NCBI GenBank assembly: GCA_913009915.1
Contig: CAJVYZ010000007.1
Coordinates: 1-14,914 of the forward strand
Source: an uncultured Gemmatimonadota bacterium
GTDB lineage: Bacteria; Gemmatimonadota; Gemmatimonadetes; Gemmatimonadales; GWC2-71-9
Direction: 5' to 3'
Length of the DNA: 14,914 nt
The notes beneath the pieces are model-generated. The model was not told the origin of the DNA. It was given only the letters and a program-made list of their open reading frames with translations, and ran no database searches. Position numbers and translations under genes: made by a program. Below, piece by piece: positions 1,194 to 14,914 of the stretch. Positions within the stretch are counted from its first letter, which is position 1. Each line of letters begins with the position of its first letter.

Positions 1194-2282
1194 TTATGTC
1201 CTCACCCGCCACAGTAGCACTAGGCCCACGACCAGGAAGACCAAGTTGGGGATCCAGGCCGCCAACCGTGGGGCCACTGTCCCGCTGGTCCCGACGGCCT
1301 CGGACAGCTGGATGAACAGCAGGTAGGCCACAGTGGTGCCGAGCGAAATGGCGATGCCGAACGCGGTGCCGGACCGGGGTGAGGTAATGGCCATCGGCGC
1401 GCCGAACAGGGCGATGATGAAGCACGCCCCCGGGAGCGCCAACTTCAGGGCCTGTTGCACTTTCAGTTTGTTGGTGTCGTTGCCCGACCGGTCGAGGGCC
1501 TCGATGTACCTGCCCAGTTCAGCGTAGCGCATTTCTTCCGTGGCCTTGGGCGCCACCAGTAGGTCCTCGGGCCGCTGAGTCAAGGCGCCCAGGATCATGC
1601 TTTCGAAGGCGACTGCCGAATAGACACTCTGGTCGACGATCATGCGGCTGGACCCATGCCACAGGCGCCAGCGGTTCAAGGTCGAATCGAAGGTGGCGCT
1701 GTCGGCGGTGATCGCCAGGCCCGGGTACTCGAGGCTGGAACCCGGGCGCTCAAAGATCGCGTGCTGCAGCTGCTGCCTCTGCAGGTCCAGGGTGCGTACC
1801 GAGTAAACCCAGCCGTTGTCCCCCCGGAATACGAAATTGTAGCGGAACCGCGTGGGTGGCGGACCCTCCCCCGCCTGGATTTCGACCTGTTTGGCCGATG
1901 CCCCGGGTGACAGTTCGCCCACCACTAGTGCCAGGACGGTGGCGGCGGCGCCGGCAAGGAAGATGGGAAACACGATGCGCCGGAAACTCAGGCCCGATGC
2001 CTTGGCGGCGGTGATCTCCGAATGCCGGCCCATGGTCCCCACCGTGAACACTGTGGCGAACAGTACCGCGGCCGGCATGACCAGGTAGGCGTTTTCCGGG
2101 ATGGAATACAAGTAGCTCACCACGATCTCCCGCCACGTGAGGCCATTGCTGAGCAGGCCCCGCAGGTGATCGGTGAGATCGATGAGCACGGCGATCAGGG
2201 GGAACCCCAACGCGGTCAGGACGAAGGTCTTGACCCAGGTCTTGAGTACGTAGCGGTCGAGCGTCGACCGGAGGAGCTTCAC
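1194..2282 (-). CDS. lptG: LPS export ABC transporter permease LptG (YjgP/YjgQ family)
   Basis: Inner-membrane permease subunit of the LptB2FG transporter, which extracts lipopolysaccharide from the inner membrane and passes it to LptC/A. About 362 residues, the usual LptG length. Seen: an N-terminal LDRYVLKTW phrase like other LptG proteins; three hydrophobic segments (about 16-34, 56-82, 103-122); the family signature EITAAKASG (89-97) in the loop that contacts the ATPase; a periplasmic beta-rich domain (about 125-255); and three more hydrophobic segments to the C-terminus. The start chosen is the GTG at 2282, whose GTGA overlaps the lptF stop by 4 bp and gives the family-typical N-terminus. 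A GTG at 2327 would add 15 residues of unremarkable sequence. Neither start has a clear ribosome binding site, so translational coupling to lptF is likely. LptF versus LptG was decided by order and N-terminus. Confidence 0.88.
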   Translation of the reverse strand: MKLLRSTLDRYVLKTWVKTFVLTALGFPLIAVLIDLTDHLRGLLSNGLTWREIVVSYLYSIPENAYLVMPAAVLFATVFTVGTMGRHSEITAAKASGLSFRRIVFPIFLAGAAATVLALVVGELSPGASAKQVEIQAGEGPPPTRFRYNFVFRGDNGWVYSVRTLDLQRQQLQHAIFERPGSSLEYPGLAITADSATFDSTLNRWRLWHGSSRMIVDQSVYSAVAFESMILGALTQRPEDLLVAPKATEEMRYAELGRYIEALDRSGNDTNKLKVQQALKLALPGACFIIALFGAPMAITSPRSGTAFGIAISLGTTVAYLLFIQLSEAVGTSGTVAPRLAAWIPNLVFLVVGLVLLWRVRT

Positions 2283-3805
2283 CTGGGTGCCCGGCGTTGC
2301 GGGAAGCGTTGCTTGATGCTGTCCCACAGGTCCGCGAAATCACCACCCCGGGCCGTCCCCGTGTGGCGGGACACCACCAGCATGCCCAGTATGCCGAAGG
2401 TCGTGAGCAGGATGTTGGGAGCCCACATCGGGATCCACGGATCCATTCGCCCAAGGTCGCCTAGGCTCTCTCCTGCCGTCAGACCCACATAGTAGATGGC
2501 GAACACCGACAACCCGCCTCCGATGACCAGTCCCATCCCACCCCTGGGGAAACGCAACGCCATGGGGATCCCCACCACGACGAACGACAGGCACGCCATG
2601 CTGATGGCCCACTTCTTGTGGATCTCGACCAGATACGCATTGGCCCTCCGGCGGGCCACTCTCTCCACGTCGCGGGCGGCGGAGATGTCGGACCACGGGA
2701 CCAGAGCGACGTTACGATTTGCAACAACTGGCTCGATTTCCGGCTCAGGGTCGACCTTTTTCCTGAAGCGATTCAGCAGCTTCAGCGGGACCAGTGTGTC
2801 TTGTGCCATCTCGGTCGCTTCCGCCGTCTTCGGGAGTAGCAGGGTGATGACACCCTGCCAGGCGTCGCAGATGGTTCTCCGGGGTATGGCCGCATTCTGG
2901 GGGAGACCGGCCAGCGGCGGCAGCTCCATCAAGGCTCGTAAGTCGCTACGGAGGAACCGGTTACGGTCCTGGCGCGATTGAGCGACGTCGCGGCGGGCTT
3001 GCCTGACGATGTCCTGCATCTCACAGGTGGACAACTCGCGGTCGCCTCGCACGGCTTCGGTGGTACCCCGTTCCAGTTGGTTGGACACATTTCGGATCAG
3101 AATGGTGTTCATCTGGAAGGCGGTCAGCCGAAAGGCGCGGGAATCGTCGGTCTCGAACTCATGGATTTCTCCTTGGTGGAGCTTGATCGTGAGGTCCAGC
3201 TGGTTGCCGGCTACCGCCATCTGGCCGCTATCGGCGTAAATGATTCGAGGCCGATCCTGGCTGGTGAGGTCGTAGATGACCACGTCCTTGAGGCGGCCGC
3301 TGTTGGGGTCGATCCGGCTGGACCGGAGGAACAGGCGGGACGGTGGAATCTCGTTCACGATCTGTTCGCTCAGTTCCAGGGTCGGTTTCTTTCTGGCGAT
3401 GTCGAACAACAGGGTGCGGAGCCGGGCATTGGTGCGGGGCAGGACCTGGTCCACGAAGACGAACGTCCCGGCCGACAGCAGGACGCCGGCAACGATCACC
3501 GGAGTCAGCAGTTGGCTGACGCTGATCCCGCTGGCGCGCATGGCGGTGATCTCACTGTCGGCCGATAGTTGGCTGAAGGTGTAGAGTACGGCGAGCAGGA
3601 CGGCCATGGGCATGGTCATGGCGACGATGAACGGGATGCTGAGCGCGAATACCTCGGCGATCACCAGCCAATCCAGTCCCTTCCCAACCAAGTGGCCGAA
3701 ACGGCGGGCCACTTGGTTGAGGAGCATGATGCTGGTCAGGGCCATCAGGGCAAAGGCGAAGGGCCCAGCTAGTTGCCGCAGGATATATCGGTGGAGAAGT
3801 CCCAT
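2279..3805 (-). CDS. lptF: LPS export ABC transporter permease LptF, long form with periplasmic insert
   Basis: Partner permease of LptG in the LptB2FG lipopolysaccharide exporter. Seen: hydrophobic segments at about 14-34, 50-77 and 102-120; the family signature EITAMRASG (85-93); a periplasmic beta-rich domain to about 240; then a charged, helical and Pro-rich stretch (about 245-395); and three hydrophobic segments at about 400-417, 424-444 and 459-478. At 508 residues it is roughly 140 longer than the E. coli protein. Nearly all of the excess lies between segments 3 and 4, so an insert follows the jelly-roll domain, and the frame is open throughout. First gene of a two-gene operon with lptG, starting at an ATG with no strong ribosome binding site. 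It diverges from the sprA-like gene, sharing a short promoter region. No lptB, lptC or lptA is in the window. Confidence 0.9.
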   Translation of the reverse strand: MGLLHRYILRQLAGPFAFALMALTSIMLLNQVARRFGHLVGKGLDWLVIAEVFALSIPFIVAMTMPMAVLLAVLYTFSQLSADSEITAMRASGISVSQLLTPVIVAGVLLSAGTFVFVDQVLPRTNARLRTLLFDIARKKPTLELSEQIVNEIPPSRLFLRSSRIDPNSGRLKDVVIYDLTSQDRPRIIYADSGQMAVAGNQLDLTIKLHQGEIHEFETDDSRAFRLTAFQMNTILIRNVSNQLERGTTEAVRGDRELSTCEMQDIVRQARRDVAQSRQDRNRFLRSDLRALMELPPLAGLPQNAAIPRRTICDAWQGVITLLLPKTAEATEMAQDTLVPLKLLNRFRKKVDPEPEIEPVVANRNVALVPWSDISAARDVERVARRRANAYLVEIHKKWAISMACLSFVVVGIPMALRFPRGGMGLVIGGGLSVFAIYYVGLTAGESLGDLGRMDPWIPMWAPNILLTTFGILGMLVVSRHTGTARGGDFADLWDSIKQRFPQRRAPR

Positions 3806-3897: not shown

Positions 3898-6800
3898 GTG
3901 ACACGACTTCTCGTCACTCTTTTCGGCCTGTGCCTGATTCCCGCCACCCTGGCCGGCCAAGGCACCCAACCGGACACCGTGCGTTTTGGGGTTCGGAGGG
4001 TCATGGACCGGTCCATTTTCATTCTCAAGGAGCCCCGGGCGTTGCGGTCGCCATGGCTTGGTATACCCCGGCGGTCGCCGGCCCAGGCCGGCCAGGCTTG
4101 GGCCGAGCGAGTGAGCGCCCGGCTGCGGCGCGAGCAGGTCGTGCGAGCCAACACCCAGCTTCTATCACAATTATACGGGCGCATGGCGTTTGCGGTTGCC
4201 GACTCGGCCGACCGGGCCGCGGGCCGGCGGGGGGTGTTGGGTCTCGACCCGCGCTATGCCGATTTGAGTCTGGACGCGCAGGCCCGGTTCGAACTCAGGA
4301 CCGACCGGATCAAGAACGAGCGCTGCACCACCGCTGAGGCCCTGAGGGCCGACTCGGGCTGCCGGGCCAAGTTCAAGGCGCCCAGACTCGATACCGAATT
4401 CAGTGCCCTGGCCGGCGGCGTCATCGCCGAGCGGGTCCACATCAACGTCGATTGGGACTCGCAGCGGGAGCTCGACGCCACCAACACCATTCAGGTGTTC
4501 TACCAGGGACTGGAGGACGAGATCATCCGGCGGATCGAGGTGGGCACGGTGAGTTTCCAGCCTCCGCCGTCCCGGTTCATCACCTCGCAAATACCCAGCA
4601 ACAACTTCGGCGTCAACGCCAGCTTCGAGGTGGGCCCGTGGGGGATTCAGGCGTTGGTGGCCACTCAGGAGGGTAGCGTCGTCAACGAACGACGATTCAC
4701 CATCGGCGCGACCGCCAGCGAACCGCAGGACCGTGCGTTGCGTGATCTGGACTTCGAATCCAACCGGTTCTTCTGGGTGGTCGACCCGACGGTAGTGCCG
4801 GGTTATCCCGCGGTGGACATCCTGAATCTGGCTCAACTGGAGCAGATACCTACCGACGTCCTCCCCAGCCAGGTGCGACTCTATCGTTTCAGGCCGCGCG
4901 CCGGCCAGGGCGCCGCGGATCCCAACCTGGGCGGGATCAACGCTTTCGGCGTTCGCGGTGGCAGCGAGCCTGGTCTCGGTGCCCGGTGGGAGCTGCTGAT
5001 TCAGAATCTCGACTACTACCTCGACCCCAGCGGCCTGTGGTTCGTCCTCAATACCAAGCTGGCATCCGACGAGTATATCAGCGTGAGCTACCTCACCACG
5101 GGAGGGCAGCAGGTCGGCACCTTCCCGGACCGGGACCGGGGTCTGGGTCCCAATCAGGAATACCTTGATACCCTCCAACTGGTAGGAGCCCCGCAGACCC
5201 TGTTCGGACAATCGATTTTCCTGCGGGAAATGCGACACATCTACCGCATCGCGGGAACCGATCTCAACAAGAGCACGCTCACGGCGGCGCTCACGCTCAA
5301 CCGTTCCGAGCGGCCATTGAGTGGCGGCGCAGACACCTACATCGCGTTGCTGGGGTTGGCCCTGCCGACGGACGCCAACATCCTCGACATCGAGAACCGG
5401 GTGTTTCCCCGTGACCGGGATGCCGGCGCCACGACGTCCGTGGGGGAGTCCTATATTGTGTTCCCCCACCTCACCCCCTTCGCCGATGGGACCAAACTCT
5501 CCACCGCCCAGGAGCGGCAGGACTCGCTCTACCGAACCCCGACCTACCTGGTACTCGGCAGTCAGGGGCCGCCTACCAAGTACGCGTTTCGTCTGCAGTA
5601 CGAGGCCGCCGGTGGCAGTGATCGATCACAGGTAAGTCTGAACGCCCTGAGCGTGCAGGAGGGGACCGATCGGCTGGAGCTCAATGGACGGGTGCTGGAG
5701 CGGGGGATCGACTACGAGATCGACTACGCCCTGGGGGTGGTCACCTTCCTCGATCCCGACATTCTTTTCGGGAGCGGGACCGCCCAGTTGGTGGCCAGGT
5801 TCGAAGAGCGCGGGTTCTTCGCCATTGCGCCGACGTCGGTGTTCGGATTGACAACCACTTACTCCCTCGGTGACGTGGGAGCGATCAATTTCATGGGTCT
5901 GTACCAGCAGGAGCAGTCGGCGTTCACCCGGCCGCCCCTGGGGTTCGAGCCGACGGCCAACTTCATCGGCGGGGTGACGACCCAGCTTCGATTCCGCCCG
6001 ACGGGCGTGACGCGATTCCTCAATTCCCTGACTTCTACCCCCGCCACCGCTCCCTCCATCCTGGACCTCAACGCCGAGTTTGCGCTGTCGCGACCCGTGG
6101 CCAACCGGATTGGCGAGGCCTACATCGACGAATTCGAGGCGGATGCCGGGTTCCGGATATCCATGGGCGAGGCGCGGTGGGCACCGGGGAGCATTCCCAA
6201 CCGGACCGATGGGCTATCGCTGCCGGGATTCGGCGTGACCTTCGACACCACCGACGCGGTCCAGATGTCGTGGCAGAATCTCATTCTACGTGGCGGGGCA
6301 GTGGCGCAGGTGTTCCCCCAGGACATCGATCCCGGCATCGTCATCGCCGGGACGGGCGAGAGTCAGGAGACGGTGCTCTATCTGACGTTTCACGCCGACA
6401 CGGCTGGGGGTATCGTCCGGTCGGACAATTCGTCGCTGTGGTCGCGACCGCAGCGGAACGCGGCCCGGTTCCGGCCACTGGTCATCTCCCTCAGCAATAC
6501 CGGCATCGACCTGTCGAACAACCAGTTTCTCGAGTTCTGGATGTTCACCGACTCCCGGTTTACCGCTCCCGAAGACGCCGGTATCGAGTTCATCTTTGAT
6601 CTGGGCACGGTCAACGAAGATGTTCTCGCTCTGGCCCCCGACAGCCTGACGATCACCGGGGTCGACTCGTCGTACACCGGAACCCAACACGTCGGCGTGG
6701 GGCGGCTCGACACCGAACGAGGGGTCACCGGCATCTTCAACGCCCAGACCGACGACGTGGGCATCCTGGGCGATCGGCCGGACTCGATCCTCATCGTGGG

Positions 6801-9800
6801 ACAGGGTCTTACCTTCGATCCGGCACTGTGTCAACGGACGCTCACCAGCGCAGTCGAGGTGTTCCCCTGGGGCGATCTCGAGGTGCAGTGTTCCAACGGC
6901 AACGGGATCCTGGACACCGAAGATCTCAACGGTGACGACGTCCTCAACTTCAACGCGGCCAACGTCGCGGACAACGTCTTTCGCTGGGTGTTCACACCCG
7001 CCGAGCTGGGGCGCTTTTTCGTCCGCAACGGCCGGGTCACCAGCATCGGTCGCTGGAGCCTTTTCCGGATCCCTCTCGACTCTCCTGACCAGGTGCTAGG
7101 CGTTCCCAACGAACGGCTGGTACAGGACCTCAGGCTTACGGTGGCCGGGCCCACCAGTGATGTCGATTCCGTCGTGCGCTGGGGCTTCGCCCGGATGAAG
7201 CTCACCGGGGCGCCCTGGATCAGGCTGGCGGACGCACCGATCGACGGGATCTCCGGCAGCACCGCCAACCCTACCGGAGAGGTGGTGGTCACCACCATCT
7301 CGACGACGGACAAGGCGCTGGGGTATGTCCCGCCGCCGGGTGTGACCAACGCGGGTAACAGCAGCGGCACGTCGGACGATCTGGGAACGGAGATCAACGA
7401 ATCTTCGTTGCGGATCTATACCTTCGACCTGATCACTGGCGAGGCGTTGCAGGTGGACCAGCGCGTGGAGGCCGTCGACCGCTTCGTCGCCGGACCTCAA
7501 AACACGCTGAGCTACGGTGATCTGCGGGTGTGGTTCCGAGGCCGGGGCTCCGGTTGGGATGAGGGCGACCTCGAAGCGTTCCTGAAGATGGGGAGCGACG
7601 ACAACAACTTCTATCTCTATCGGACCCCGGCGAGTACCACCAGTTGGGAGCCGGAGGCGGTCATCGATCTCGACGTTTGGCGGGAACTGCGCAGCCAGGT
7701 GGAAGTGCAGTGGTTGCAGGGACTCCCGCCGAGCGGGGCGGGGCAGTGTGGCATGGGCGATTCCACGGCCTACGTTGCCTGCAGCGGACCGTACCTGGTA
7801 CAGGTGGCCGATCCGGGTATCAACCCACCCAACCTGGCTGCCGTGCAGCAGATATCGGCCGGCATTCTCAGGGTCGCCGCCACCACGGTCATCGATACGG
7901 CCGAGTTGTGGATCGACGACATCCGGCTGACCCGGCCGGTGAACCAGGTCGGTACCGCGCTGGCCATCGACGGCCGGTTGAGTGCGTCCGATGTGGGCGA
8001 CCTGACCTTCGGGTTTACCCGGCGCGGTGGCCAGTTCCGGCAACTGGGCCAGGATCCCAGCTTCCAGACGACCAACAACTTGAACGTCTCCTCGACGCTG
8101 CGGCTCGACCGGTTCCTGCCGCCGGGGCTCGGGTTATTTGTTCCTACCACGATCAGCTACGCCCGCTCGTCGACGGATCCACAACTGGTTGCGGGAACCG
8201 ACATCATCGCCAGCGACCTCGACGGACTGCGAAAGCCGGAATCGTGGTCCACCAGCTTCTCGATGACCGTGCGCCGGAGCCGACAGGGTACCGGTTGGAT
8301 TACCCGCGGGTTGGTGGATCCGTTGGCGTTCACCGGAAGCTTCACTAGCGGACGGGCGCGGCGGGAGTTGTCCCAAACCGCCAACTCGAGCCGGAACCTG
8401 GCCCTCAGCTACAACCTCACACCCGGCTCAACCAGCTTCAGCCTGGGTCTCGGCGGACTGATCGGAGGGCTCCCGGACTGGTTCAGCGGGAGTGAGGCGG
8501 GCGTCGGACTCCGCGACGCCAGGATCTCGCTCGCGCCCCGAAACGTGCGGTTCAGCAGCCGGCTAGGCCGCGACCAGACGGACTTCACCACCTTCCTGGT
8601 TCCAGTGGAACTCCCGAGTGACAGCAACTTCAGTCCGGCTGTATCGCTGTCCCACCTGTGGGTGAATTCCGCCGGTCTAACCTGGCAGCCGTTGGGACTG
8701 TTGACGATGAGCGGTGATCTCAGCAGCACCCGGGACCTCCGCCACTATGAGGATTCGACCTCGATCGGCCGGTTGACCTCGCTGTCCCGCCAGAGTTTCC
8801 TCGGCCTGGACGTCGGCGTAGAGAAATCCAGGACGATGTCGACCCAGATGTCGATCACGCCGCGCATCAACTCCTGGCTCCGCCCGCGGTACGTTACCGG
8901 GAGCACGTTCGGACTGAACCGCGACCTGACGACCCGGAATCCGGTTCGGGTCGACGGCGATACGGCCGGGTCCTTCGTGCTCCCCCAGACCTACAACAAC
9001 AGCCACACCCGCGAGCTGGGGGCGGCGGTGAACCTGGCGCGGCTGGTGCAGTCCGTATTCGGCGACAGCAGCGGTGTCACCTCAGTATTTGCCCGGGCGC
9101 GTCCGTTGGATCTGAGCACCCGGGTTGTCAGGTCGTCCATCTTCGACCTGGCCACGTTCGATCCCAGCGTGGGGTACCGGCTTGCACTGGGTGGGTTGGA
9201 CGAGTTCCTGGCCCAGGGAGGTCAACTGGCCCGCGGGGCTCGGGAAGTGATCACCGACCGAATCTCCACCGGCGCGACCTTCCCTATGGGTATCAGCGCC
9301 CAGTTGACCTACGGCCTGGTGCGCACGGTCCAATTCACTCGGGTGGGGGCGGAATTTCTGGAGACCCGGATCCGGGCGAAGGAGTGGCCCGTCGGCAACG
9401 TCCGGTGGAACACCTCCGTCGTCAGCGGCCCGATCGCGCTCATCGGAATGGGCCTGGTGTTTCGCCGGACGGAAGGGACGACAGTCACGCCCCGAGCCGA
9501 CGGGGGTCAGGCCTCGCTCCGGCTCAACAAACTGAAATCGTTGTCGCCCAATATGAATCTTGCGTTCAGGAATGGCCTGACGCTCACCGCGGGATATTCG
9601 TTGTCCAACAACGAGATCCTCAACAACGGGAACACCACTCTGGTCGAGACCAGTCAGCTCAACGGCACCCTGTCGTATTCGTTTCCGCTTCCCCGGTCCA
9701 TCAGCAGCCGGCGGAGACTGGTCCGGACCTCGCTGACCGCCCTGACCTTCACATCCACCAGCTGTCTCCAACGGCCTGGTGAGGCCGAGTGCCTTACCAT

Positions 9801-9981
9801 CAACGACATCCGACGACAGGAAATCGACGCCTCACTCGACACCGACGTCTCGCAGATCCTGCAGGGCGGGCTCTCACTCAGCTATTCCATCAACGATGCG
9901 CGGCACATCGATCGCAAGACATCCCAGATCATCATCAGTTTAAGTTTCAGTCTCTCGCTCTTTGCCGGAGATTTCCGGTAG
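3898..9981 (+). CDS. sprA: SprA-like giant outer-membrane protein (type IX secretion translocon family)
   Basis: About 2027 residues. In Bacteroidetes, SprA (Sov) is the 36-strand outer-membrane barrel through which type IX secretion cargo crosses the outer membrane. Seen (numbering from the GTG): signal peptide 1-20 ending PATLAG before Gln21; an EDEIIRRIEVGTVSF phrase (from 206), the repeated SprA_N-type element; a second such phrase, GIDYEIDYALGVVTF (about 601-615); the SprA hallmark YIDEFEAD (742-749); a FIFDLGTVNEDVL phrase near 900; an acidic DLNGDDVLN loop (1009-1017); then long amphipathic beta-strand sequence to the end. The mature protein's eight Cys form four close pairs. It is somewhat shorter than the 2300-2500 residues usual in Bacteroidetes. 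The GTG start is preferred over TTG 3850 because it begins a clean signal peptide and lies downstream of the promoter; no ribosome binding site is evident. Family membership is well supported; a working type IX system is inference. Confidence 0.85.
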   Translation: MTRLLVTLFGLCLIPATLAGQGTQPDTVRFGVRRVMDRSIFILKEPRALRSPWLGIPRRSPAQAGQAWAERVSARLRREQVVRANTQLLSQLYGRMAFAVADSADRAAGRRGVLGLDPRYADLSLDAQARFELRTDRIKNERCTTAEALRADSGCRAKFKAPRLDTEFSALAGGVIAERVHINVDWDSQRELDATNTIQVFYQGLEDEIIRRIEVGTVSFQPPPSRFITSQIPSNNFGVNASFEVGPWGIQALVATQEGSVVNERRFTIGATASEPQDRALRDLDFESNRFFWVVDPTVVPGYPAVDILNLAQLEQIPTDVLPSQVRLYRFRPRAGQGAADPNLGGINAFGVRGGSEPGLGARWELLIQNLDYYLDPSGLWFVLNTKLASDEYISVSYLTTGGQQVGTFPDRDRGLGPNQEYLDTLQLVGAPQTLFGQSIFLREMRHIYRIAGTDLNKSTLTAALTLNRSERPLSGGADTYIALLGLALPTDANILDIENRVFPRDRDAGATTSVGESYIVFPHLTPFADGTKLSTAQERQDSLYRTPTYLVLGSQGPPTKYAFRLQYEAAGGSDRSQVSLNALSVQEGTDRLELNGRVLERGIDYEIDYALGVVTFLDPDILFGSGTAQLVARFEERGFFAIAPTSVFGLTTTYSLGDVGAINFMGLYQQEQSAFTRPPLGFEPTANFIGGVTTQLRFRPTGVTRFLNSLTSTPATAPSILDLNAEFALSRPVANRIGEAYIDEFEADAGFRISMGEARWAPGSIPNRTDGLSLPGFGVTFDTTDAVQMSWQNLILRGGAVAQVFPQDIDPGIVIAGTGESQETVLYLTFHADTAGGIVRSDNSSLWSRPQRNAARFRPLVISLSNTGIDLSNNQFLEFWMFTDSRFTAPEDAGIEFIFDLGTVNEDVLALAPDSLTITGVDSSYTGTQHVGVGRLDTERGVTGIFNAQTDDVGILGDRPDSILIVGQGLTFDPALCQRTLTSAVEVFPWGDLEVQCSNGNGILDTEDLNGDDVLNFNAANVADNVFRWVFTPAELGRFFVRNGRVTSIGRWSLFRIPLDSPDQVLGVPNERLVQDLRLTVAGPTSDVDSVVRWGFARMKLTGAPWIRLADAPIDGISGSTANPTGEVVVTTISTTDKALGYVPPPGVTNAGNSSGTSDDLGTEINESSLRIYTFDLITGEALQVDQRVEAVDRFVAGPQNTLSYGDLRVWFRGRGSGWDEGDLEAFLKMGSDDNNFYLYRTPASTTSWEPEAVIDLDVWRELRSQVEVQWLQGLPPSGAGQCGMGDSTAYVACSGPYLVQVADPGINPPNLAAVQQISAGILRVAATTVIDTAELWIDDIRLTRPVNQVGTALAIDGRLSASDVGDLTFGFTRRGGQFRQLGQDPSFQTTNNLNVSSTLRLDRFLPPGLGLFVPTTISYARSSTDPQLVAGTDIIASDLDGLRKPESWSTSFSMTVRRSRQGTGWITRGLVDPLAFTGSFTSGRARRELSQTANSSRNLALSYNLTPGSTSFSLGLGGLIGGLPDWFSGSEAGVGLRDARISLAPRNVRFSSRLGRDQTDFTTFLVPVELPSDSNFSPAVSLSHLWVNSAGLTWQPLGLLTMSGDLSSTRDLRHYEDSTSIGRLTSLSRQSFLGLDVGVEKSRTMSTQMSITPRINSWLRPRYVTGSTFGLNRDLTTRNPVRVDGDTAGSFVLPQTYNNSHTRELGAAVNLARLVQSVFGDSSGVTSVFARARPLDLSTRVVRSSIFDLATFDPSVGYRLALGGLDEFLAQGGQLARGAREVITDRISTGATFPMGISAQLTYGLVRTVQFTRVGAEFLETRIRAKEWPVGNVRWNTSVVSGPIALIGMGLVFRRTEGTTVTPRADGGQASLRLNKLKSLSPNMNLAFRNGLTLTAGYSLSNNEILNNGNTTLVETSQLNGTLSYSFPLPRSISSRRRLVRTSLTALTFTSTSCLQRPGEAECLTINDIRRQEIDASLDTDVSQILQGGLSLSYSINDARHIDRKTSQIIISLSFSLSLFAGDFR

Positions 9982-10008: not shown

Positions 10009-10923
10009 ATGGGGTCGTTGAAATCCGTTCTGTCCATCGCCGCCTCGCTCCTGCTCGCCTGCCAGGGCGAGCAAGCGCCGCCGCGTCCGTTCGATGGGGC
10101 TCAGGCCTTCTCCTATGTCGAGTCCCAGTTGGCCTTCGGGCCGCGAATTCCCGGAACCCCGGAACACCAGGCGGCGGGGCATTGGCTCGACAGCCTAATG
10201 CGGCAACGGGCGGATGCGGTCGTGCTCCAGGACTGGCTGCACGTCTCGCGCGAGGGAGACTCTCTCCCGATGCGCAATGTCCTGGGACGGTTCAATCTGG
10301 ACGCACCCACCAGGATCCTGTTCCTGGCCCACTGGGACACCCGACCCAAGGCCGATGGCCCGAAGTCGTCCGACCCAAACGCCCCCGTGCCGGGCGCCAA
10401 TGACGGTGGATCAGGGGTCGCCGTGCTCCTGGGCATCGCCGACGCGCTACGAGCCCTGCCTCCCTCGACCGGCGTGGATCTCCTGTTGGTGGACGGTGAG
10501 GACTACGGTATCTTCGCCGAAAAAGACGACGTGCTGATCGGCTCGAAATACTTCGCTGACCACCCGCCCGATGGGCCCACCCCTCGCTACGCCATCCTGT
10601 TCGATCTGGTGGGCGACCTGAACCAGCGATTCCCTAAGGAGGGTAACTCCCTCATTGGGGCGCCCGATGTGGTGAAGGAAGTGTGGGATGCGGCCCGCCA
10701 AATCGGCTATGGGCACGTTTTCGTGAACGCCACGGGCCAGGCGATCATCGACGATCACGTGCCGTTGCAACAGGCCGGTATTCCGGCCATCAACATCATC
10801 GATTTCGACTACCAGTACTGGCACACGCCGGAAGACACCATCGACAAGATCAGCGCCGCCAGCCTGCAGGCGGTCGGTGAGGTGGCTCTGGAAATGGTCC
10901 GCCTGGAGGAGAGACGGAACTGA
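10009..10923 (+). CDS. M28-family lipoprotein, glutaminyl-peptide cyclotransferase-like
   Basis: 304 residues. The family either removes N-terminal residues (M28 aminopeptidases) or cyclises N-terminal Gln to pyroglutamate (glutaminyl cyclases). Seen: a lipobox LLLAC with Cys18, the only Cys, so a lipid-anchored envelope protein; AHWDTRP (107-113); GANDGGSG with zinc-ligand Asp132; DGEDYG with general base Glu164 and Asp165 where the human enzyme has the zinc ligand Glu202; FDLVGD (198-203); DDHVPL (249-254); and YWHTPEDT with zinc-ligand His272. The last two motifs and their spacing match human glutaminyl cyclase (DDHIPF...WHT) better than classical M28 aminopeptidases, so cyclase activity is favoured but not certain. 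The gene lies 27 bp downstream of the sprA-like gene on the same strand and is probably co-transcribed. If it acts as a cyclase, its substrates would be exported proteins beginning with Gln. Confidence 0.85.
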   Translation: MGSLKSVLSIAASLLLACQGEQAPPRPFDGAQAFSYVESQLAFGPRIPGTPEHQAAGHWLDSLMRQRADAVVLQDWLHVSREGDSLPMRNVLGRFNLDAPTRILFLAHWDTRPKADGPKSSDPNAPVPGANDGGSGVAVLLGIADALRALPPSTGVDLLLVDGEDYGIFAEKDDVLIGSKYFADHPPDGPTPRYAILFDLVGDLNQRFPKEGNSLIGAPDVVKEVWDAARQIGYGHVFVNATGQAIIDDHVPLQQAGIPAINIIDFDYQYWHTPEDTIDKISAASLQAVGEVALEMVRLEERRN

Positions 10924-11057: not shown

Positions 11058-11675
11058 ATGCGCAATAGCGAGCGACGGTCGGTACTCGTGATGATCGGTC
11101 TCGCGGTTCTGGGCCACGGGATCAGGCTCGCAATCTCCGATCCCGGCGATCCTCCGGGGGCGGTTAGCCTCCTCCCGGCGCGGGACAGTGCTTCCCTGGG
11201 AGCCCACCGGGACAGGGTTGCCCGGCTGATGCGCCCTCTGGCACAGGGCGAGCAGGTAGATTTCGATCGGGCTTCCGTCCACGAGCTGGTGCGCCTGCCG
11301 CGGGTCGGCCCCAGCGTGGCCAAAGCCATCATTGCCGACCGGGAGCGGCGGGGGCCGTTTGGAAGCCTGGCGGGCCTGGACCGGGTTGCCGGCGTGGGTC
11401 CGGTGCTGTTACGGGCCGTGCAGCCGTTTGCGGCCTTCTCCGGCCATCCGTCTGCCGCCGGGACGGATGGGAACTCGGCCGAGGAGGTCAACGTCAACCG
11501 GGCCACCGTGGATGAGCTGCGGACGCTCCCTGGCATCGGGCCGTCTCGGGCAGCCAAACTGGTGGCTTATCGCGAAGTGCATGGGCCCTTTGCGACCCTC
11601 GAATCGTTGGCCGATGTTCCCGGTATTGGCCCGGGGACCGTAGCCCGGTTGCGCGGCCGTGTCCGGTTGCGCTAA
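11058..11675 (+). CDS. comEA: ComEA-like competence protein with duplicated helix-hairpin-helix DNA-binding unit
   Basis: 205 residues. ComEA proteins bind incoming double-stranded DNA in the periplasm or at the membrane during natural transformation. Seen: a single hydrophobic N-terminal segment (about 8-26), either a membrane anchor or an uncleaved signal; a linker; then two homologous units. Unit 1 (about 67-125) contains VDFDRAS, LPRVGPSVAKAI and VAGVGPVLLRA. Unit 2 (about 144-204) contains VNVNRAT, LPGIGPSRAAKLV and VPGIGPGTVARL. Each unit has two helix-hairpin-helix motifs, giving four in all, whereas a typical ComEA has one unit. Unit 2 is closer to consensus; unit 1 has Arg and Ala replacing key Gly/Ile positions. 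No ribosome binding site precedes the ATG; alternative starts at GTG 11088 or ATG 11091 would shorten the anchor. The pilB/pilT/pilC genes downstream suit a DNA-uptake role. Confidence 0.82.
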   Translation: MRNSERRSVLVMIGLAVLGHGIRLAISDPGDPPGAVSLLPARDSASLGAHRDRVARLMRPLAQGEQVDFDRASVHELVRLPRVGPSVAKAIIADRERRGPFGSLAGLDRVAGVGPVLLRAVQPFAAFSGHPSAAGTDGNSAEEVNVNRATVDELRTLPGIGPSRAAKLVAYREVHGPFATLESLADVPGIGPGTVARLRGRVRLR

Positions 11676-11857: not shown

Positions 11858-13561
11858 ATGACGACAACGGCCACAGGCGGTGACCGCCTAGGCGAGATTC
11901 TGATTCAGGAAGGACTGCTCACTGAAGAACAGTGCAGGCAGGTCCTGTCTGAGCAGGGGTCGTCCGGCCATCGTCTCGGGTATCTGCTCGTCAAACAGGG
12001 CCTGGTGGAGGAGAACGCCATCACCAAGGTGTTGGCGCGCCAGTATCGCATGCCCGCGGTGGACCTGTCGCGATTCGAAGTCGACCCCCACATCTCCAAG
12101 CTGATTCCATCGGACATGGCGCTGAAGCACACGGTGCTGCCACTGAAACGGGAGGGGCGGACCCTGACCGTGGCGATGGCCGATCCGACCAACCTGGGGC
12201 TCATCGAGGACCTCAAGTTCATCACCCGGTACGATCTATTCCCGGTCATTGCCGGGGAATACACGCTCCGCAACCTTATCGAGAAACAGTACGAAACCGA
12301 GGATCAGCAACTCAGCGACATCCTGAAGGATATGGAGGAGGAGGACATCGAAGTCCTCGAGGAGCAGGAAGACGAGGTTGCGACCCAGGCGCAGATCGAA
12401 GATGCGCCGGTCGTAAAGCTCATCAACGGGTTCCTCATTGACGCGGTCAAGCGGGGCGCCAGTGACATCCACATCGAACCGTTCGAGCACGAACTGCGGG
12501 TGCGGTATCGGATCGACGGGGCGTTGCTGGAAGTGATGCGGCCGCCGATCAAGATGCGGGCGGCCCTGACCTCCCGCGTCAAGATCCTGTCGAACTTGAA
12601 CATCGCCGAGCGGCGGTTGCCGCAGGATGGGCGGCTCAAGCTCAAGATGGGTAACCGGGTGATCGACTTCCGTGTCTCGACGCTTCCGGTGTTGTTCGGC
12701 GAAAAAATAGTGCTCCGTATTCTCGACAAGGGGAATCTGACTCTCGACCTGTCGACCTTCGGGTTCGAGCCGAAGGCGGAAACAGATCTGATGACCGCGA
12801 TCGCCAATCCATACGGGATGGTCCTGGTCACTGGGCCTACCGGATCGGGCAAAACGACGACGCTCTATTCGGCCTTGTCCCAGATCAACAACATCGACGT
12901 CAACATCATGACCGCCGAGGACCCGGTCGAGTATAACCTGCAGGGAATCAACCAGGTGCAGGTCCGCCCCGATATCGGCTTGACGTTCGCGTCCGCCCTG
13001 AGATCGTTCCTCAGGCAGGATCCGAACATCATCATGATCGGCGAGATCCGGGATCTGGAAACCGGCAGTATCGCCATCAAGGCGGCGCTCACGGGCCACC
13101 TGGTGTTGTCGACACTGCATACCAACGATGCACCCAGCACTGTCACCCGCATGATCGACATGGGGATCGAGGCCTTCAACGTGGCGAGCGCGGTGAACCT
13201 GGTGGCGGCCCAACGACTGGTCCGGCGAGTGTGCAAGCAGTGCAAGCAGGAGGTCACCTACGATGAAGCCGAACTTCGGGCGCTGAGCAGCGACATCCGC
13301 GCGCTGAGTGACTTTACCTTCATGCGGGGTGAGGGCTGCGACGCGTGTGGCGGCACGGGATACGCGGGCCGCGCCGGACTGTACGAAGTAATGGCCATGT
13401 CGCCCGACCTCAGGAAGCTCATCCTGCAAGGGGCGTCGGTGGCCGATATTCGAGACAAGGCCATCGAAGAGGGCATGCTCACACTGCGGATGGATGGACT
13501 GAAGAAAATCGAACGCGGGGTCACCACACTCGAAGAATTGGTCAAGGAGTCGGCGGAATGA
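11858..13561 (+). CDS. pilB: Type IV pilus assembly ATPase PilB (GspE family) with MshEN-type N-terminus
   Basis: 567 residues. A cytoplasmic hexameric ATPase that powers pilus extension. Seen: N-terminal MshEN/GspE-N domain (about 9-145) with two tandem motif copies (10-33 and 39-62); an acidic linker (about 146-182); the N2 domain with ASDIHIEP (201-208); Walker A GPTGSGKTT (326-334); the Asp box with AEDPVE (353-358); Walker B with IGEIRD and catalytic Glu396; a His box ending LHTND (420-424); and a zinc-binding tetracysteine (Cys459, Cys462, Cys494, Cys497) typical of PilB/GspE and absent from PilT. All catalytic motifs are intact. The ribosome binding site is weak. A sigma-54-like promoter lies upstream. 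The stop overlaps the pilT start by 4 bp (ATGA), indicating one operon. GspE of a type II secretion system is the alternative; adjacent pilT makes PilB much more likely. Confidence 0.95.
   Translation: MTTTATGGDRLGEILIQEGLLTEEQCRQVLSEQGSSGHRLGYLLVKQGLVEENAITKVLARQYRMPAVDLSRFEVDPHISKLIPSDMALKHTVLPLKREGRTLTVAMADPTNLGLIEDLKFITRYDLFPVIAGEYTLRNLIEKQYETEDQQLSDILKDMEEEDIEVLEEQEDEVATQAQIEDAPVVKLINGFLIDAVKRGASDIHIEPFEHELRVRYRIDGALLEVMRPPIKMRAALTSRVKILSNLNIAERRLPQDGRLKLKMGNRVIDFRVSTLPVLFGEKIVLRILDKGNLTLDLSTFGFEPKAETDLMTAIANPYGMVLVTGPTGSGKTTTLYSALSQINNIDVNIMTAEDPVEYNLQGINQVQVRPDIGLTFASALRSFLRQDPNIIMIGEIRDLETGSIAIKAALTGHLVLSTLHTNDAPSTVTRMIDMGIEAFNVASAVNLVAAQRLVRRVCKQCKQEVTYDEAELRALSSDIRALSDFTFMRGEGCDACGGTGYAGRAGLYEVMAMSPDLRKLILQGASVADIRDKAIEEGMLTLRMDGLKKIERGVTTLEELVKESAE
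13544..13549 (+). promoter_or_regulatory. Ribosome binding site of pilT
   Basis: AAGGAG lies within the end of pilB, 8 nt before the ATG at 13558. It confirms that ATG over an in-frame open stretch reaching back to 13345, which would overlap pilB by more than 200 bp. Confidence 0.8.
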
Positions 13562-14685
13562 CCTTCAATTTACGGGCGCTTCTCGAGGAGATGATCGAAA
13601 AGGACGCCTCGGACCTGCACATCACGGCGGGGGAGTGTCCCAAGCTGCGCATCGATGGCAATATCTTGAGCTCATCCTTCGTCGAGCCGATGACGCCAAA
13701 AGATACGCTGCAGATCGCCTATTCGGTGTTGACGGAAAACCAGAAGAAGCGATTCGAAACCGAAGACGAACTGGACTTCTCGTTCGGCATCCAGAACCTG
13801 GCACGCTTCCGCGGGAACTGCTTCAAACAGCGTGGCTGTGTCGGCATGGTGATCCGTATGATCCCCTTCCAGGTGCGGACCTTCGAGGAGCTGGGTCTCC
13901 CACCGGTCGTCGCCAAGATGTCGAGCCGTCCGCGGGGGCTGGTACTGGTGACGGGTCCGACCGGATCCGGGAAATCGACCACCCTGGCGGCGATGATCGA
14001 CAAGATCAACAAGGAACGGCAGGGACACATCATAACGGTGGAAGACCCGATCGAATTCATCCACCGCCACCAGTCTTGCATCGTCAATCAGCGCGAAGTA
14101 GGCACGGACACGAAGAGCTTCGCCAACGCACTGAAGTACGCCCTAAGGGAAGACCCGGATGTCATTCTGATAGGCGAGATGCGCGATCTCGAGACCATTA
14201 GCGCCGCGCTGACCATTGCGGAAACCGGGCACCTAGCCCTGGCCACGCTTCACACCAATTCAGCCGCTGAATCGATCAACCGGATCATCGACGTGTTCCC
14301 GCCGACCCAGCAGTCACAGGTCCGCGCCCAGTTGGCCTTCGTGCTCGAGGGCGTGATTACCCAGACGCTGCTGCCGCGGGCCAAGGGCCGCGGGCGGGTG
14401 ATGGCCGTCGAGATCATGGTGGCAACGCCGGCTATTCGGTCACTCATTCGTGACGACAAGATCCATCAGATCTACTCGGCGATGCAGTCAGGCAAGAAGC
14501 ATGGCATGCAGACGATGAACGACTCGCTGTACAATCTCTACGTCCAGCGGGAAATCCTCATGGAGGAAGCGCTAAGGTGTTCGCCGGATCCTAACGCACT
14601 CATGCGCATGGCAGGACAGACGCCGGTGGAAGAGCAGGATTTCATGAACGTTGATGACAAGAACGCCCGCCCGGCGTATCGCTGA
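13558..14685 (+). CDS. pilT: Type IV pilus retraction ATPase PilT
   Basis: 375 residues. A cytoplasmic hexameric ATPase that depolymerises the pilus, powering twitching and the pulling-in of DNA. Seen: an N-terminal domain with ASDLHITAG (17-25) and RIDG (31-34); Walker A GPTGSGKS (133-140); the Asp box VEDPIEF (161-167); Walker B with LIGEMRD and Glu207; a His box with GHLALATLHTNSA (224-236); and AIRSLIRDD (292-300), the C-terminal AIRNLIRE-type motif that marks PilT and is needed for retraction. There is no tetracysteine, which distinguishes it from PilB. A C-terminal tail of about 25 residues is poorly conserved in appearance. It begins inside the pilB stop codon region (4-bp overlap), and pilC follows 17 bp later, giving the pilB-pilT-pilC order known from Myxococcus. 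Confidence 0.96.
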   Translation: MTFNLRALLEEMIEKDASDLHITAGECPKLRIDGNILSSSFVEPMTPKDTLQIAYSVLTENQKKRFETEDELDFSFGIQNLARFRGNCFKQRGCVGMVIRMIPFQVRTFEELGLPPVVAKMSSRPRGLVLVTGPTGSGKSTTLAAMIDKINKERQGHIITVEDPIEFIHRHQSCIVNQREVGTDTKSFANALKYALREDPDVILIGEMRDLETISAALTIAETGHLALATLHTNSAAESINRIIDVFPPTQQSQVRAQLAFVLEGVITQTLLPRAKGRGRVMAVEIMVATPAIRSLIRDDKIHQIYSAMQSGKKHGMQTMNDSLYNLYVQREILMEEALRCSPDPNALMRMAGQTPVEEQDFMNVDDKNARPAYR

Positions 14686-14848: not shown

Positions 14849-14914
14849 AGATCGGAAGAGCGTCGTGTAGGGAAAGAGTGTAGATCTCGGTGGTCGCCGG
14901 AGCATTAAAAACAA
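14849..14914. other. Illumina TruSeq adapter read-through and A-rich tail (assembly artefact)
   Basis: From 14849 the sequence matches, base for base for 51 nt (to 14899), the reverse complement of the Illumina TruSeq universal adapter, beginning AGATCGGAAGAGCG. The next seven bases (14900-14906) match the remainder of that adapter with two substitutions, and 14907-14914 is A-rich, as happens when a read runs past the end of the adapter. It is not genomic DNA and should be trimmed. The adapter sequence is recalled from general knowledge. Confidence 0.97.

Follow-up and report, generated by a model that had tools for sequence, protein, structure and literature searches.

Background and scope

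The closest described relatives of the system considered here are the type IX secretion systems (T9SS) of Flavobacterium and Porphyromonas, whose energy-using step, the ejection of the carrier PorV together with its cargo from the outer-membrane translocon SprA, is ascribed to the PorL/PorM motor. According to passages of PMC10994853 and PMC12635249, disruption of the motor in Flavobacterium leaves cargo trapped on the translocon, and ejection of carrier and cargo is the step that requires energy. A possible T9SS in FCB phyla, Gemmatimonadetes included, has already been suggested in a passage of PMC11285876. The present study concerns a sprA-type gene of an uncultured Gemmatimonadota bacterium (GenBank assembly GCA_913009915.1) on a stretch of 14,914 nucleotides, here called the window, which is the entire contig CAJVYZ010000007.1 (C7). 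The genome (3.47 Mb in 676 contigs) is 76.5% complete and was analyzed together with 120 genomes of the phylum at 85% completeness or more, giving a phylum sample of 121. We estimate a probability of roughly three in four that SprA acts at the outer membrane in the same way as its Bacteroidota counterparts, within a PorV-dependent, type-IX-like exporter that lacks a recognizable PorL/PorM motor.

The window also touches on a second trait, the enrichment of glutamine directly after signal peptides (the Q-rule). The parts of the literature cited here describe the rule as occurring "exclusively in the Bacteroidetes phylum" (PMC10653852) or as Bacteroidetes-specific, yet with high values elsewhere in Ignavibacterium album (77%), Chloroherpeton (55%) and a few cyanobacteria (PMC5837995). 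The latter paper, in the same parts, points out that high Q-values go along with T9SS, but makes the case that the two are not mechanistically connected; the term "Gemmatimonad" is absent from its main text. The literature, covered mostly at the level of titles and abstracts, yielded no description of SprA in Gemmatimonadota that goes down to genes.

A SprA translocon in the window

The gene at 3898–9981 (+ strand) encodes 2027 residues in an unbroken open reading frame (ORF). The frame stays open from TTG 3850 to the stop at 9981, giving an alternative start with 2043 residues; the GTG start at 3898 leads straight into a predicted signal peptide (3898–3957, + strand), MTRLLVTLFGLCLIPATLAG followed by QGTQ, with the cut site placed by eye and Gln directly after LAG. 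The first-pass annotation had taken the protein for an SprA-type translocon on the strength of the phrases YIDEFEA, FDLG..NEDVL and EDLN-D--LN, all of which are present in the translation, and the family models bear this out, with 455.3 bits (E 4.7e-136, cut-off 200) for NCBIfam TIGR04189 (T9SS outer membrane translocon Sov/SprA) and 40.3 bits (cut-off 27) for Pfam SprA_N. The sequence also matches the Flavobacterium SprA chains 6h3j and 6h3i in the PDB at E 3e-21. Across 16 aligned orthologues (13 from Gemmatimonadota, two from KSB1 and one from Calditrichia), F746 of YIDEFEA, G903 and E907 of FDLG..NEDVL, and D1009 of EDLN-D--LN are invariant. The assignment of the DNA to Gemmatimonadota likewise held up, as the named records nearest to the adjacent glutaminyl cyclase gene are Gemmatimonadetes or Gemmatimonadota metagenome-assembled genomes (MAGs).

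The protein was modelled as two overlapping pieces, each a part of the barrel, from an alignment with 15 orthologues. The mean predicted local distance difference test score is 72.2 for residues 150–1340 and 78.1 for residues 840–2027. The first model gave four PDB matches at E ≤ 0.001, all of them SprA (8gl6, 8gl8, 6h3i and 6h3j; E 3e-54 to 5e-35); with the second, the same four entries came out on top (E 4e-39 to 8e-33), followed by other outer-membrane proteins from E 1e-7. These are partial models rather than one whole closed barrel, and both rank the solved SprA entries first, as expected for the very large barrel anticipated in the first-pass annotation. The template modelling scores of 0.39–0.49 by query and root-mean-square deviations of 14–16 Å of both models against solved SprA are modest because each model covers only part of the barrel. 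By family and fold, the gene at 3898–9981 thus encodes a full-length, genuine SprA translocon.

Distribution and loss of SprA

TIGR04189 matches were found in 88 of the 121 phylum genomes, above the cut-off in 86. Genomes of genus g23 score up to 1251 bits (one stretch), from which one may guess that the model was built with such a sequence. Gene order was mapped in 40 stretches from the phylum sample and in 80 named loci, the best 80 of 591 when ranked for their resemblance to the glutaminyl cyclase (QC) gene of the window, which lies next to sprA; as these sets have contigs in common, they do not count as independent. Several lineages have lost sprA cleanly. In a PilB tree of 33 of the 40 loci, the presence of SprA changes seven times, four of which are forced by well-supported branches. 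Among the 26 Gemmatimonad-named loci in the best 80 of 591, sprA is immediately upstream of the QC gene in 15, and in six SprA is missing with LptF adjoining QC. As for the other five, L245 begins at QC, L264 has SprA 3.8 kb upstream, and L267, L271 and L282 show no SprA. LptF also adjoins QC in eight of 20 SprA-less stretches of the phylum sample; in the others a greedy choice of ORFs hid one gene or the order was unresolved. In the SprA-less genome G039 the QC match begins at a contig end, so the loss there may be an assembly gap.

Co-variation of PorV with SprA

The PorV family model NF033709 matches 105 of the 121 genomes and exceeds its cut-off in 75. A PorV match at E 1.35e-25 or better is present in 71 of the 88 genomes with SprA and in none of the 33 without (Fisher 2e-17, not corrected for kinship). 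Among the genomes without SprA, G039 and G095 come close to this limit, and the weak matches in the other 16 that have one score in a range also attained by OmpP1/FadL proteins. A weak PorV match on contig C163 of the window's own genome was rejected for this role, being OmpP1/FadL (PF03349). On the PilB tree, with PorV labelled at E 1e-20, PorV changes along with SprA in a mean of 3.6 of four independent pairs and never in the opposite direction (p 0.125, the pairs being too few for significance).

Candidate cargo

A TonB-dependent receptor, a protein of 1265–1345 residues, PorV and a GWxTD protein occur in this order in five of the 17 stretches from outside the window's genome (G043, G011, G029, G049 and G050), the genes being assigned through the resemblance of their products to G043 proteins. 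There, the receptor contains CarboxypepD_reg and Plug domains, PorV scores 132.6 bits with PorV_fam, and the last protein has the GWxTD domain. The window's own genome has the end of a receptor gene with a 1331-residue protein on contig C127, and PorV with the GWxTD protein on contig C394. A GWxTD-domain protein follows PorV in several genomes; the own copy is at 1599–3038 of C394 (genome G000).

The family of the 1331-residue protein matches 27 of the 121 genomes at E 1e-10, all of which have SprA; in f9, another class of the phylum and perhaps Glassbacteria, and in G096 it matches only in pieces. By eye, its last ~90 residues resemble a type A sorting domain (FxNLP...IRIYxxSGVL...W(D/N)xRNR...GVYFYH...GRM). 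In hmmscan, the scores of family members are marginal, at 17.6–22.5 bits with TIGR04183 (cut-off 23) and 28.5–37.8 bits with the end of the PorZ model (cut-off 260). Eight other proteins, judged by eye, have similar C-termini. The order of receptor, long protein and PorV is also kept in G044 (L180) and G030 (L179), with long proteins that are not linked to the 1331-residue one at E 1e-8. Their ends look alike by eye; that of G044 scores 16.4 bits with TIGR04183, and a TIGR04183 search with the G030 protein gave no match. The 1331-residue protein was also considered as PorU and rejected, as it has no C25 domain. As judged from these searches, PorV-family proteins and putative cargo with sorting-domain-like ends are present and co-vary with SprA.

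Motor, sortase and proposed mechanism

The GldL model (TIGR03513) matched none of the 121 phylum genomes, and the GldM model (TIGR03517) none of 60 genomes of this sample with SprA. Since the search of the 121 genomes included no matching control, the models were also run on ten control genomes. Both match four of them, all Bacteroidota (Porphyromonas circumdentaria, Anaerophaga, a Flavobacteriales MAG and a Sphingobacteriia MAG); GldL had no match in the Balneolales, another "Bacteroidetes" MAG, Ignavibacteriae, Glassbacteria, Calditrichia and Kryptonia genomes. The C25 sortase domain of PorU (PF01364) was found in six of the 121 genomes, namely five f9 genomes and, weakly, G031, and not in the window's genome. 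The first-pass annotation had left the choice between a complete type IX system and SprA alone; the situation lies in between, as the PorV family and sorting-domain-like cargo accompany SprA, and GldL, GldM and, in this class apart from the weak match in G031, PorU were not found.

In the exporter that we favor, proteins carried across the inner membrane by Sec and bearing a C-terminal sorting domain (CTD) would pass from the periplasm into the pore of SprA. There the sorting domain would bind a PorV-family carrier docked at the side opening of SprA, and carrier and cargo would leave sideways to the cell surface, following the PorV/CTD mechanism set out in a passage of PMC10994853. One cargo in this lineage is probably the ~1300-residue protein; its gene clusters with those of PorV and a TonB-dependent receptor, so cargo and receptor may be located together at the cell surface. 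The energy for ejecting the carrier would not come from a recognizable PorL/PorM motor; given the receptor encoded beside PorV, a TonB/ExbBD route is conceivable, but no more than that. Export activity and the pairing of cargo and receptor are what we infer from features read in sequence: the family and fold of SprA, the co-variation of PorV and the sorting-domain-like ends. As the lineage keeps SprA, PorV and cargo, which tend to be lost jointly, with the motor undetected, the strict need for a motor in type IX export becomes testable by comparison and genetics.

Several observations weigh against this reading. The single-match limit of E 1.35e-25 counts 71 genomes, four fewer than the 75 above the NF033709 cut-off, and two genomes without SprA have PorV matches just below it (G039, E 7e-23; G095, E 4e-24). 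Six genomes with SprA (G012, G016, G019, G057, G066 and G100) have no PorV match or one as weak as in many genomes without SprA. In the window's own genome, PorV is cut by the contig end and reaches 45.7–49.2 bits, below the cut-off of 90; the 1331-residue protein on C127 has no PorV after it, and its TIGR04183 score is marginal (22.6 bits, or 23 with neighbours, in the genome search and 17.6 in hmmscan, against a cut-off of 23). Finally, family models could miss a divergent motor.

This last point leads to an alternative in which the lineage has a full Bacteroidota-like T9SS whose PorL/PorM and PorK/PorN have diverged beyond the reach of the family models. In its favor, SprA occurs together with proteins of the PorV family and CTD-like proteins, and the five f9 genomes (G001, G003, G005, G007 and G009), with PorU, 5–16 PorV matches and 11–33 TIGR04183 matches each, suggest a busy, powered system. 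Yet even these genomes gave no GldL or GldM matches despite their richer type IX set, and the two models, silent across the phylum genomes searched, do match the four Bacteroidota controls. On this evidence we consider a complete system of this kind doubtful.

The glutaminyl cyclase gene behind sprA

The gene at 10009–10923 (+ strand) starts 27 bp after sprA. Pfam calls its product peptidase M28 (PF04389). Its best PDB match, at E 3e-58, is 3tc8, which carries the label leucine aminopeptidase; 6qro, a glutamine cyclotransferase, follows at E 3e-57 together with further entries of that name, with the best plain aminopeptidase only at E 1e-15 and animal QCs at ~1e-9. The top relatives are presumably Bacteroidetes proteins. 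The lipobox C18 and residues D132, E164, D165 and H272 are invariant in 15 orthologues; the last four we take to be candidate active-site residues, some of them presumably metal ligands. Despite the M28 call, the product is a QC of the M28 fold by family, and a predicted lipoprotein.

At E 1e-20, matches to the M28-type QC were found in 86 of the 121 genomes. The plant-type QC (PF05096), which is unrelated, matches in 44, with two of these matches being weak. By genome, 71 have the M28 type only, 29 the plant type only, 15 both and six neither (Fisher 1.8e-11, not corrected for kinship). One or both types are thus carried by 115 of the 121 genomes, and the animal and plant types largely exclude each other, a pattern suggesting that one type has repeatedly taken the place of the other while the activity stayed necessary.

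Of the 64 phylum genomes with both sprA and QC genes, 62 were compared, the other two having no listed SprA row. The two genes are on the same strand within 4 kb in 44 of the 62 and unlinked in 18, some of these at contig ends. Outside the phylum, sprA lies immediately before QC in six of the 53 loci, among the best 80 of 591, that are neither Gemmatimonad-named nor Glassbacteria: Calditrichia L268, KSB1 L277 and L301, the Bacteroidota MAG L278, Neomarinimicrobiota L300 and the unclassified bacterium L321. Both KSB1 loci have the order LptG-LptF-SprA-QC. The SprA of L278 is split in two ORFs, that of L300 is encoded by an ORF of 847 residues that corresponds to the later portion of the model, and that of L321 is cut by the contig end. 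All but L278 were searched with TIGR04189 and exceed its cut-off, with 841, 792, 914, 230 and 363 bits. As the pair occurs in several phyla, it is likely either ancestral or moved together. An obligate need of SprA for the adjacent QC was rejected, as each is kept without the other.

Glutamine after signal peptides

Cut-site predictors of our own were dropped as noisy, with many cuts one to five residues off. Predictor 1 placed Gln at +1 in 2/30 sequences of the own genome, 1/18 of G012 and G043, 0/23 of G004 and G072, 2/22 of G018 and 3/21 of G057; predictor 2 in 22/77 of families f1–f3 and 4/14 of the own genome; predictor 3 in 20/105 of f1–f3, 3/24 of the own genome, 7/22 of g23, 8/43 of the Bacteroidota control and 0/22 of Escherichia coli; and predictor 4 in 8/74, 4/15, 0/17, 9/47 and 0/19 of the same five sets. 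These values are far below the ~71% Gln at +1 printed for Bacteroidetes (PMC5837995, in the part cited), so most of the signal was evidently lost, and a test that requires no choice of cleavage site was used instead, in which a signal-peptidase motif followed by Gln is counted against shuffled windows.

In this test Gln is enriched in the own genome (8 versus 2.7 expected, z 3.7, n=13), in f1–f3 (46 versus 17.6, z 8.8, n=68), in f4, f5, f6 and f8 (z 3.6, n=9) and in g41 and others with only the plant-type QC (z 4.1, n=10). Enrichment is weak in g23 (z 1.6, n=12) and absent from the three f9 genomes included (0 of 8 windows). For a mixed set with members from KSB1, Calditrichia, Ignavibacteria and other groups, z was 4.1 (n=14), and the controls gave z 7.6 for Bacteroidota (21 versus 5.3, n=41) and z 0.6 for E. 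coli (n=14). The f1–f3 value stays at z 8.0 without SprA-sized ORFs, and an inner control window gave z 0.3. Other letters reach z 2–3 in single groups: T in the own genome and g23, E in the Bacteroidota control, and D and N in E. coli. Compared directly with the small E. coli set, f1–f3 differ (42/66 versus 3/14, p 0.006); no significant difference was seen for the Gemmatimonad-named loci (p 0.08), for the mixed set (p 0.24) or even for the Bacteroidota control (p 0.2). Of 27 N-termini of SprA itself judged by eye, 22 have Gln behind the signal peptide. Taken singly, L099 has Gln too, by predictor 2, L301 and L104 do not, and L092 and L105 are unclear. The glutamine rule in this class and the sprA-QC pair across phyla are the least expected results of the analysis.

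From the QC family and the Gln enrichment we infer that the QC probably caps the N-terminal Gln exposed by signal peptidase I on SprA and many other exported proteins. This capping would seem to be routine maintenance of the envelope, passed on with sprA in one operon and apparently not part of the export step. An alternative would make SprA and QC a functional pair, with capping belonging to the type IX pathway. Such a pairing is favored by the 44 of 62 genomes that have both genes on one strand no more than 4 kb apart, by their direct adjacency in KSB1, Calditrichia, Neomarinimicrobiota and one MAG of Bacteroidota, and by the Gln-initiated SprA N-termini. We consider it unlikely in view of the retention of a QC of either type in 30 of the 33 SprA-less genomes, of the 29 genomes with the plant-type QC only, and of the report, in a passage of PMC5837995, that cyclization does not control type IX export. 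The Q-rule and its enzyme in this class, with the QC gene directly behind sprA in several phyla, reopen the question, raised in that paper, of the coincidence of T9SS and high Q-values.

Gene order around sprA

Divergent from sprA are genes for two permeases like those of lipopolysaccharide (LPS) export, LptF-like (2279–3805, − strand; PF03739, 286 bits) and LptG-like (1194–2327, − strand; PF03739, 230 bits). Downstream of QC are a ComEA-like helix-hairpin-helix protein (11058–11675, + strand; TIGR00426), the type IV pilus ATPase PilB (11858–13561, + strand; TIGR02538, 751 bits) and the retraction ATPase PilT (13558–14685, + strand; TIGR01420, 505 bits, with 13555–14685 used in the family search), all three conserved neighbours. 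Both map sets show LptG and LptF divergent from sprA, which in families f1–f4 and f8 is mostly followed by QC, ComEA, PilB and PilT; the exceptions are g23, without an M28-type QC, and f5 and f9, with QC elsewhere. That SprA exports substrates other than CTD proteins, for instance in the service of LPS or pili, is quite unlikely: the divergent LptFG genes are conserved beside sprA in all classes examined and PilBT are downstream in most, but LptF, QC, ComEA and PilB remain in SprA-less loci where labelled, and PorV mostly goes with SprA, which marks PorV, and not the neighbours, as its partner.

At the left end of the window, positions 2–1123 look by eye like the truncated C-terminal part of a TonB-dependent-receptor-like protein, and similar long proteins occur at the same place in relatives; a Pfam search with it gave no match. 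At the right end, positions 14849–14914 carry an assembly artefact: a sequence that we take to be an Illumina adapter is joined to the start of a gene that by eye resembles pilC.

Comparison with known systems

The QC resembles the animal-type QC of Bacteroidetes in its family, in its predicted lipoprotein nature and in the enrichment of Gln after signal peptides. In contrast to the Bacteroidetes case, the QC and the Q-rule are found here outside Bacteroidota, the gene stands directly behind sprA, and some lineages have a plant-type QC instead. In a tentative and rather speculative scenario, the FCB superphylum would ancestrally have had a type IX exporter without a PorL/PorM rotary motor, for which SprA, PorV and CTD cargo sufficed at the outer membrane, with energy perhaps supplied via the TonB-dependent receptor encoded next to PorV; sprA would originally have shared an operon with QC, and the Q-rule and the pore would have arisen together.

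With respect to the candidate T9SS of FCB phyla (PMC11285876), the present locus is an instance, and the passage cited holds no gene-level account for Gemmatimonadetes; the co-loss, the gene cluster and the undetected motor come from the present analysis. Compared with the T9SS of Flavobacterium and Porphyromonas, the system shares the sequence family and fold of SprA, a carrier of the PorV/PorQ family and type A-like C-terminal ends. It differs in that PorL/PorM are undetected and that PorU was not found in this class except for the weak match in G031, in the clustering of a TonB-dependent receptor, a CTD-like protein and PorV, and in the placement of sprA within an LptFG-sprA-QC-pil locus. 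The pore is therefore a further member of the known SprA family, and the system around it is a variant.

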